From: Ardenticatenaceae bacterium
GTDB lineage: Bacteria; Chloroflexota; Anaerolineae; Promineifilales; Promineifilaceae
Assembly (NCBI GenBank): GCA_027054335.1
Contig: JALUPA010000754.1
Location: 1 to 44,649, forward strand
Length of the DNA: 44,649 bases
Reading direction: 5' to 3'
A model generated the notes under the pieces. The model saw nothing but the letters and a program-made list of their open reading frames with translations. It made no database searches and was not told where the DNA came from. Made by a program: the position numbers and the translations under genes. Shown here in pieces: positions 11,784 to 14,532 of this stretch; within the stretch, counting starts at the first letter, position 1; the number at the start of each line of letters is the position of its first letter.

Positions 11784-11812
11784 TTTTCAGTGTTCAGTTT
11801 TCAGTGTTCAGT
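11784..11812. repeat. Heptamer array (cagtgtt/cagtttt), left arm
   Basis: ttttcagtgttcagttttcagtgttcagt. Confidence 0.85.
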
Positions 11813-12065
11813 CCTCTGGCAGCGCCGGCAGGCGTTTGAGGTCTGCCACGTATTTTTCCTCATCGTACTCCCGCTGATATTTGAGTACATTATATATTTC
11901 GGTAGCAAGAACGGCCGCTATCAATTCGCGGGCTTCCTGATGTGAATATCCGTCGCGCCGCAACCGTTTATACGTTTCTTTGGTTTCGGGCGGAGTGTTA
12001 TCGCGTAATTGGTTATCTACAGTTTCCAATAGGGTCTTCTTTAATATCGGGTCTGCTTGTTCCAT
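11808..12065 (-). CDS. DUF1841-like small protein
   Basis: MEQADPILKKTLLETVDNQLRDNTPPETKETYKRLRRDGYSHQEARELIAAVLATEIYNVLKYQREYDEEKYVADLKRLPALPED. Confidence 0.6.
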   Translation of the reverse strand: MEQADPILKKTLLETVDNQLRDNTPPETKETYKRLRRDGYSHQEARELIAAVLATEIYNVLKYQREYDEEKYVADLKRLPALPED

Positions 12066-12085
12066 AACCACACCTGCTTTTTGGT

Positions 12086-12151
12086 ACGCAGATGAACGCT
12101 GATGACGCAGATAAAAAGATATAAAATCAGCGTCATCAGCGTTAATCTGCG
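12086..12151. repeat. Hairpin repeat (cgcagat...aacgctgatgacgcagat / atcagcgtcatcagcgttaatctgcg)
   Basis: acgcagatgaacgctgatgacgcagataaaaagatataaaatcagcgtcatcagcgttaatctgcg. Confidence 0.85.
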
Positions 12152-12170
12152 CCCACAAGTTTACATAACT

Positions 12171-12373
12171 CTACCTTTGATAAAATCTATAATAAATTTG
12201 CGCCTCGGCCATTTTTCGGAATGCGGCGCGTACGGCCAGCGTCGTCTCCAGCCGCCATTCAGCCAGCTTTTCCAGCCCGGTTTCATTTTCGGCAATGGCG
12301 TCCCAGGCGGCCGTTAACTCATTAAAAATCGCCCGCGTACCCCCGCACCATCTCCGCAATTTGTGTATTCATA
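12171..12373 (-). pseudogene. Small ORF with apparent frameshift
   Basis: MNTQIAEMVRGYAGDF* in one frame, then ...AIFNELTAAWDAIAENETGLEKLAEWRLETTLAVRAAFRKMAEAQIYYRFYQR* in another. Confidence 0.4.
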
Positions 12374-12385
12374 CAAACACGCCAA

Positions 12386-14479
12386 CTAATCTTCGTTTTC
12401 CCTCATAAAATCAAGATGCAGCAACTTTAATTTATCGCCTTCATCTCCAAGCGGCATATCCCATCGGGTTTCCATGAAACGCAAAAGTTTCAAGCCCCTT
12501 TCCTTAATTTCCTGCGCTGTCCATTGCTCGTAATGGGACACTTCCAATTCGGAAAACGATCCATCCGCATATCCGTTACGCAGCACCTTGCCATTCTTGT
12601 CTCGTTTGGTTCGCTTTTTGTCGGCAAAACAATCATTCTGCAAACTGGCATTGATTTTAGATGACAGCAACAATAAATTTCCCAAAGAACCACACAAATA
12701 CTTCCGCTGTTTTGTTGTAAATTCACCAAATCCATAACGCCAACATTGACGTTTATGTTTTTGTGGATAGATATGCTCAATAGATACTTTATCTTTCTCC
12801 CCCTTTGTAAAATCTTTCCACGTAACTTTGTGATGTTTGGCAAAACTCCTAGCCAACTCACTCTCATATTCAAAGAGAAAATAACGTAAACCAGACCAGC
12901 CGTAAAAACCGGTCCCATTTTTATTGTACTTTTGCGAAATACTATCCTGGAATGTTTCATACTTGAATTTCCCTTCTGAAAATTTCCAACTTACATCATC
13001 ATGCAACCAATTCGTAATATCTGAAACGGTATGTTTTCCCTTATACAGGTGACGAGCAGCATTGTAGTAGGTGCTGCTACCGTAATTTGAACGAGACTGA
13101 GAAACGCGGAATATCACAAAGATAAATCTCTCGATTGCTTTGAAAAGTTTTACACGCTCGTTTGATGTTACGTCACTGGTGGAAAAAGCGCTCATCACCA
13201 AAGGTCGAAAATAACCCATGCCGATACGGTTTAATCGATCCAGCCAGAGCTGATCTTCTTTTGTAAGATCAGGATTGTTTTCAGGATTGTAGCTATTATA
13301 CCAATGTCTGGCAGATTCTTTCAGGCTGAGAACATAATCATTTATATCTGATGGCGTCAGTTTAGCTTCCCAACTGTTTGCAGAGGCGGTTTCTTCATCT
13401 TCTTCATCTTCTTCATAATCTATTTCAACCTCATCCCCTACCATTTCTTCGACCTGTTTCATTGAATCTGTCTTTATCTCAACTTTTTGGCGGACATTCT
13501 TGGGTGAAAATTGTTCGTTCAACAAAAAGTTAATATAGTCTTTTCCTTTCTGGCGGGTATATTTCAAGTACATAATCCAGTGCGCACGCAGAAAATCATC
13601 ATCATCCAAAGGGCGGCGCTTGTTACGCCCCAAGTGATAATATACCTCTTTCCAGGCATCATTGATGTTGTCCCGGAGCTTTTTCCTCTCATCATCGCTC
13701 AATTCGTCGTCGGAATACAACGTTGACAGGTAAATCAAGCGGTTTTTCAACAATTCCAGGTTGGACAGCTTCTTACCCCGATTGTTCATTGTTTCAAAGG
13801 CAACAAAAACGTCAAAATCGTCGCCAATTTTATACTCGTTAAACATGAATCTTTGGGTAAGTTTTGTGAAGACAGATTCCAATGCTGACTTACCCTGCGC
13901 TTCAAAGAGGGCTTTTACATTTTCCGTAAAAAACTTTTTAGCATTTTCTAAATTAAGCGTATAAAATGTTTCTTCTATGACCCCTTCATTAGACTCATTA
14001 AAGATTCTGTACCGTAAAAATTTGAAGCCAGGATTATCTATTTCGTAACCGAATTTGTAGGTCTTGATAATTTTTTTCGGTGGTTTCTCGATAAACAGAT
14101 AATCTTCAACAATAGAAGTAAGCGGGCGAAGTCCTAAATATTCACGGTCTTCCTCATTTGGCAATTGTCTAACAAATTCAACCAATACTTGCAGAAGAAT
14201 AACGGCCGTTGTCAATCGCTGTTGCCCATCTACCACAAAAAACGGCACGTATTGCCAGCTTTCCATCAACCATCGCTCATCATGCCAATGTTTCCAAACA
14301 TCCCTTTCTACTTTTTTCAGAGACAGCACGCCAGTATAATGGGAGCGATTTTCTTCAAGATCAATCAAATCTTCCCAAAACTCTTTTAACTGCTGTTCGC
14401 CCCAGGCATAACCACGCTGATAATCAGGGATCCGAAGCAGCTTGTTACTGAAAACGTTGTGTAACGATTGTAATTCCAT
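12386..14479 (-). CDS. DUF262 + DUF1524 protein, GmrSD-like type IV restriction family
   Basis: LLRIPDYQRGYAWGEQQLKEFWEDL and FFVVDGQQRLTTAVILLQVL (DUF262/ParB-like, DGQQR); C-term VSIEHIYPQKH...LGNLLLLSSKINASLQND (HNH-like DUF1524). Confidence 0.9.
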   Translation of the reverse strand: MELQSLHNVFSNKLLRIPDYQRGYAWGEQQLKEFWEDLIDLEENRSHYTGVLSLKKVERDVWKHWHDERWLMESWQYVPFFVVDGQQRLTTAVILLQVLVEFVRQLPNEEDREYLGLRPLTSIVEDYLFIEKPPKKIIKTYKFGYEIDNPGFKFLRYRIFNESNEGVIEETFYTLNLENAKKFFTENVKALFEAQGKSALESVFTKLTQRFMFNEYKIGDDFDVFVAFETMNNRGKKLSNLELLKNRLIYLSTLYSDDELSDDERKKLRDNINDAWKEVYYHLGRNKRRPLDDDDFLRAHWIMYLKYTRQKGKDYINFLLNEQFSPKNVRQKVEIKTDSMKQVEEMVGDEVEIDYEEDEEDEETASANSWEAKLTPSDINDYVLSLKESARHWYNSYNPENNPDLTKEDQLWLDRLNRIGMGYFRPLVMSAFSTSDVTSNERVKLFKAIERFIFVIFRVSQSRSNYGSSTYYNAARHLYKGKHTVSDITNWLHDDVSWKFSEGKFKYETFQDSISQKYNKNGTGFYGWSGLRYFLFEYESELARSFAKHHKVTWKDFTKGEKDKVSIEHIYPQKHKRQCWRYGFGEFTTKQRKYLCGSLGNLLLLSSKINASLQNDCFADKKRTKRDKNGKVLRNGYADGSFSELEVSHYEQWTAQEIKERGLKLLRFMETRWDMPLGDEGDKLKLLHLDFMRENED

Positions 14480-14503
14480 TCTTGCTCTCCCATTCCCAGG
14501 CGC

Positions 14504-14532
14504 AACTGAACACTGCACACTGAAAACTGCAT
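14504..14532. repeat. Heptamer array, right arm, inverted relative to 11784-11812
   Basis: aactgaacactgcacactgaaaactgcat. Confidence 0.85.

Follow-up and report, generated by a model that had tools for sequence, protein, structure and literature searches.

The window, i.e. the whole 44,649-nt stretch of DNA analysed here (contig JALUPA010000754.1 of an Ardenticatenaceae bacterium), carries on its minus strand a four-gene operon encoding a 276-aa protein (up276), two BrxD-like ATPases and a helicase. Between the two ATPase genes lies a 2,752-bp low-GC cassette with a GmrSD-type nuclease gene, a decayed ORF and a DUF1841-like gene. The features of the locus are as follows, in window coordinates.

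6740..8854, minus strand: DEAD-box helicase, last conserved operon gene, 704 aa (Pfam DEAD 2e-29; PADLOC BrxHI 235 bits, SngC 218 bits)
8855..10386, minus strand: second operon joint, ATPase-2/helicase, with small inserted genes: a PIN toxin at 9448-9831 (Pfam) and small neighbouring ORFs
10387..11781, minus strand: ATPase-2, BrxC/BrxD-like AAA+ ATPase, 464 aa (PF10923 2e-23); orthologues 67-93% identical
11784..11812, plus strand: heptamer array, '-' arm in the operon direction, 2 nt before the ATPase-2 start
11808..12065, minus strand: DUF1841-like gene, about 85 aa (PF08897 4e-6); 87% identical in G001
12087..12151, no strand: dispersed hairpin repeat inside the cassette, unrelated to the heptamers; false N-terminus of the DUF1841 ORF
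12180..12372, minus strand: decayed small ORF; the 513-bp cargo of G051 begins with a similar ORF
12386..14479, minus strand: GmrSD-type restriction endonuclease, 697 aa from ATG, DUF262 + DUF1524 (PF03235 2e-28, PF07510 6e-15); GC 0.40
14504..14532, minus strand: heptamer array, '+' arm in the operon direction, 3 nt after the ATPase-1 stop
14534..15817, minus strand: ATPase-1, BrxC/BrxD-like AAA+ ATPase, 427 aa (PF10923 8e-46); full-length orthologues in the family 81-87% identical
15869..16699, minus strand: up276, first operon gene, 276 aa, without Pfam, PADLOC or NCBIfam match; beside ATPase-1 in nearly all loci
26288..26356, plus strand: compact cargo-free hairpin of the same CAGTKTT heptamer family, comparison copy

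An earlier sequence-only reading had described inverted arrays within 2-3 nt of both ATPase genes, a third, frameshifted ORF besides the GmrSD_N/GmrSD_C and DUF1841-like genes, and a cargo-free hairpin of the same repeat family near 26290. All of these, including the bounds of both ATPase genes, were retrieved in the present analysis. Allowing up to one mismatch, CAGTGTTCAGT has 11 matches in the window where 0.38 would be expected (0 of 100 shuffles reach 11), and all 11 are confined to the two cassette-end arrays and the compact hairpin (26288-26349). The genes for an ATP-grasp protein and for Fe(2+) trafficking converge on this hairpin, which overlaps the end of the ATP-grasp ORF.

The cassette has a GC content of 0.42 versus 0.60-0.63 in the ATPase genes and is, judging by this base composition, of foreign origin. 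Its nuclease combines GmrSD_N and GmrSD_C in one chain, as does its counterpart in the sister genome G001, and DGQQR and HNH-type motifs are visible in both proteins. The DUF262 and DUF1524 domains are those of the GmrSD/BrxU type IV restriction enzymes, although the window protein is distant from solved members, with one PDB match (9jfl, E 1e-8). A 51% identical homologue is found in G015, beside a methyltransferase-like gene. The third ORF is read as decayed because G001 has an intact 90-aa version. For the DUF1841-like gene, the domain match is weak yet above the cutoff (27.3 bits versus 24). The first ~30 codons of the 116-aa ORF predicted here are not part of the gene and correspond to the hairpin at 12087-12151; the true start is probably the ATG at 12065, and the TGA stop falls inside the heptamer array. 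The start of the 116-aa ORF has 56 matches in the genome, mostly due to this second dispersed hairpin family (CGCAGATGAACGCTGATGACGCAGAT...), which occupies dozens of places, the cassette holding one copy. Joint movement of the DUF1841-like gene and the window's GmrSD gene was considered but found no support: the only family genome outside the genus in which the former was found is G015, where it lies on a contig other than that of the GmrSD homologue. An Rfam scan of 9-17 kb gave no match. As a separate observation, the highly iterated palindrome ACGGCCGT, with 77 copies in the window, is scarce in the cassette: the single copy reported earlier was found again (14202), where 4.7 would be expected at the window's density (P about 0.05).

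The order up276, ATPase-1, ATPase-2, helicase recurs with few exceptions wherever the contig is long enough, based on 66 loci from public Chloroflexota MAGs. Against the NCBIfam BrxD model, the two ATPases score 125 (ATPase-1) and 72 bits, the cutoff being 350, and the confident AlphaFold model of up276 (pLDDT 90) matches no PDB fold at E<=0.001. According to PMC10250203, Shango consists of a TerB-like protein, an ATPase and a DEAD/DEAH helicase. ATPase-1 reaches 102 bits with SngB and the helicase the 218 bits given above with SngC, the BrxD and BrxHI models scoring higher; unlike Shango, however, two ATPases are present instead of one, and up276, having neither a family match nor a fold match at that threshold, was not recognised as a TerB-like SngA. 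Among the window proteins scanned (part of the ORFs), neither PglZ nor PglX was found. Because of these two results, the core is filed under neither BREX nor Shango. By analogy, it would resemble parts of BREX type 2 (BrxD with BrxHI) or Shango in its working, and its relatives and cargo suggest a role in defence.

The heptamer arrays belong to a repeat family of which the 12-mer TCAGTKTTCAGT has 167 copies in the genome, in 74 clusters, compared to 1 for the reversed control. When degenerate arms are counted, 75 places are obtained: 50 compact hairpins and about two dozen solitary arms. Most family places (62 of 72) lie outside long ORFs; the arrays mostly abut stop codons (the commonest distance being 1 nt, or an overlap) and keep ~10-20 nt from starts. 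The precision of 2-3 nt with which the arrays adjoin the ATPase genes is ordinary, because the arrays of this family usually abut stop codons. The hairpins fold with a z of about -5.5 and, as tandem 7-mers that are dispersed, intergenic and hairpin-forming, the CAGTKTT repeats have the traits of an STRR-like family. STRR heptamers of cyanobacteria form hairpins in operon joints, e.g. hupS-hupL (PMC2670836), and TAACTGA heptamers are known from Beggiatoaceae (PMC4679880). Both are alike in placing 7-bp tandem units in intergenic joints by gene ends, whereas the unit here is CAGTKTT and two arms are parted by a 2.7 kb cargo. The copy number of the 12-mer varies erratically, with 378 in G001, 378 in G040 and 0-1 in four other members of the G040 genus. 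Between the window genome and G001, compact hairpins keep their position in 5/5 testable cases with changed arm units, and the same joints in other genomes hold other heptamers.

In relatives, cargo is found repeatedly in the ATPase-1/ATPase-2 joint, which thus forms a pocket. When joints of at least 450 bp are counted as filled and the window and G001 themselves are left out, 12 of 38 near loci have a filled ATPase-1/ATPase-2 joint versus 1 of 39 for the up276/ATPase-1 joint (Fisher p=6e-4) and 0 of 18 for the ATPase-1/ATPase-2 joint of deeper relatives (p=6e-3), both p values being optimistic since the loci are related to each other. On the ATPase-1 tree the filled state needs 7 changes, at least 2 of which are forced by well-supported branches. 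The ATPase genes are 5-83 bp apart in six family members, and many further short joints are present among the other loci. The cargos differ: AAA_21/DUF4276 with HEPN/MNT (G013, 3.3 kb), a RelE-like pair (G042), RusA with an AHJR nuclease (G041 and G044), a small ORF related to the window's decayed ORF (G051), and small TA-like sets with variable genes in Caldilineaceae-labelled MAGs. The ATPase-2/helicase joint is a second pocket, 1,532 bp long in the window and 0-3.4 kb in relatives, with methyltransferase-, AAA-, HNH- and PIN-like genes, mostly judged from sequence by eye.

Two minor observations concern these joints. In the Caldilineaceae-type cargos of L186, L188, L190, L197 and L198, a hairpin related to CGTAACGCAAGCTGTTAGCTTGCG stands directly after the ATPase-1 stop, and the first small ORF (MKRLPTWREMH...) is common to all five. 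The up276/ATPase-1 joints of L163, L166, L169, L186, L188, L190, L197 and L198 hold heptamer hairpins that differ by MAG (GAATTAT, GGGATTG and others), as if the unit sequence were turning over while the hairpin habit persists.

The closest comparison is G001, which belongs to the same genus as the window (g1) and has an ATPase-2 that is 93% identical. It contains both arrays, the small ORF and the DUF1841-like gene around a different GmrSD gene, encoding 614 aa with 26.7% identity over the sole stretch detected by tblastn. The DNA homology between the window and G001 stops at the inner edge of the left array (in the operon direction) and sets in again where the small ORF starts. The comparison shows an exchange of GmrSD alleles at this site. 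Since G001 shares the arrays, small ORF and DUF1841-like gene around another GmrSD, the cassette probably predates the split of the two g1 species, the nuclease gene having been swapped later. The same arrangement in two separate assemblies also argues against a local assembly error. The genus is sampled by these two genomes, and the ATPase joint is filled in both.

Such an exchange raises the possibility that the arrays serve as short recombination handles, allele swaps ending in the array on the left and in shared cargo sequence on the right, which is just where the homology breaks off and returns around the different GmrSD genes. However, cargo turnover in relatives mostly proceeds without arrays, the flanking ATPase genes offer far longer homology than the shared array stretch of about 30 bp, and a single exchange was seen. 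A role as handles is therefore considered improbable.

How the two arrays came to flank the cassette can be explained in different ways. The explanation we find fairly probable is that the two arms once formed one compact hairpin of this common repeat, parted by the cargo, as the sequence-only reading had suggested. In line with this, the check proposed in that reading succeeded: related genomes have empty sites, and in G040, a member of another genus, a compact hairpin of the same family lies exactly between the ATPase genes. This hairpin may be independent of the window's arms, because the other members of its genus hold next to no copies of the 12-mer. The window's arms also keep the order of the compact hairpins, all of which are '+-' (50/50, with 0 '-+'), and when joined they refold to -31.8 kcal/mol, compared to -30 to -34 for compact copies. 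Arm-to-arm complementarity was tried as a test of common origin and discarded as not diagnostic, the compact hairpins' own arms being no better than the arms of random pairs; the values for the window's two arms, affected by trimming, were left out of account.

Another possibility might be that the cargo entered a plain joint and that two independent arrays later settled 3' of ATPase-1 and 3' of the DUF1841-like gene. Abutting a stop codon is a habit of the family, which by itself accounts for the 2-3 nt precision; solitary arms occur elsewhere in the genome, several related joints are without any array, and other cargos are without arrays at their ends. However, the right arm is '-' in the operon direction, whereas, by our own reading of the listed single arms, 7/7 unambiguous solitary arms directly after a stop are '+'. 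This makes the '-' arm behind the DUF1841 stop an exception, and one that is expected if its partner lies across the cargo. Among the 75 places, one '+ ... -' arm pair around genes was found, which is the window's cassette, no further such pair of solitary arms being present in the regions around them, and the same pair occurs in both species of the genus. Two independent arrays are thus regarded as unlikely. The split retains some reservations. Both sampled g1 genomes have a filled joint, and the refuting observation named in the sequence-only reading, arrays at unrelated boundaries, was made in part: arrays abut gene ends genome-wide, and period-7 arrays of sibling heptamers were detected in 14/39 up276/ATPase-1 joints versus 6/26 ATPase-1/ATPase-2 joints, counts that are lower bounds for the relatives since the detector misses irregular arrays (e.g. 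G046).

The sequence-only reading had also proposed a cargo mobilised by its arms, and a foreign cassette with an inverted arm on either side would fit MITE-like or transposon-like ends. This proposal found no support. No gene for a transposase or recombinase was detected in the cassette, and neither hallmark of a transposon or MITE, i.e. a target duplication or copies at other sites, was observed for it; no target duplication was apparent by eye at the window/relative junctions. Neither the 75 places of this genome nor the 15 regions read in G040 revealed another arm-flanked cargo, and among 100 of 186 listed places of one 12-mer variant in G001, the only arm-flanked pair was the same locus. 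The other cargos at the ATPase joint in relatives have no period-7 array at both ends. Moreover, arrays and cargo are not associated across joints, the array-rich up276/ATPase-1 joint (14/39) being nearly cargo-free (1/39), and the idea that arrays attract cargo was rejected on the same counts. Movement by the arms is accordingly very improbable.

Under the preferred explanation of one parted hairpin, the ATPase-1/ATPase-2 joint of the g1 ancestor most likely carried a compact CAGTKTT hairpin. The foreign low-GC cassette with a GmrSD gene, the small ORF and the DUF1841-like gene would have entered between the arms, leaving one at each end, and the GmrSD gene would have been exchanged later in one species while the arms and the DUF1841-like gene were retained. 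The arms would then be passive markers rather than mobile ends. On this reading, a common hairpin repeat that already occupied the joint is enough to give a cassette inverted flanks, which calls for caution when mobile elements are called by their flanking repeats.

Embedding of effectors in BREX-type loci is already known: according to PMC12839542, auxiliary or backup effectors (GmrSD, OLD-ABC, HEPN/MNT and others) are embedded in BREX and BREX-related core loci. The present locus is alike in having variable nuclease or TA-like genes, GmrSD included, inside a conserved defence core, but its core has two ATPases resembling BrxD, a helicase resembling BrxHI and SngC, and up276, whose fold is unmatched; Chloroflexota are not mentioned in the main text of that paper. 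In core defence hotspots, e.g. the cDHS of Pseudomonas, fixed genes likewise flank many alternative defence cargos (PMC10250203), whereas the present site is bordered by adjacent genes of a single operon and its cargo measures 0.5-3.3 kb.

Sensing or processing of invading DNA is the probable task of the core ATPases and helicase, to which the pocket genes, presumably transcribed together with the core, would contribute a nuclease or a toxin. The known enzymes of the GmrSD type cleave phage DNA that carries modifications. For this reason, the window's GmrSD protein would be a modification-dependent nuclease backing up the operon, covering phages that evade the core by DNA modification. A broader reading, which we put forward only tentatively, is that an undescribed Chloroflexota defence core might be a platform with two effector pockets, the pocket gene (GmrSD, RelE-like, AAA/DUF4276, RusA + AHJR nuclease etc.) being an interchangeable effector under core control. 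Since the fixed ATPase pair marks a site of turnover for small defence and toxin genes, the pocket is usable to find new Chloroflexota effectors.

The surroundings of the operon show two further features. A 42-nt perfect palindrome (AGATTACGTAGGACAAGTTTGCAAACTTGTCCTACGTAATCT) at 15828-15869 fills the up276/ATPase-1 joint, and among the fetched loci its copies are copies of the same place only. Beside the operon, a divergent cluster at 16681-24111 encodes a SWIM zinc-finger protein, Uma2, two DUF488 proteins, a RecQ/DpdF-like helicase with a DuOB domain and an N6/N4 methylase; the SWIM gene adjoins the operon in G040 as well.
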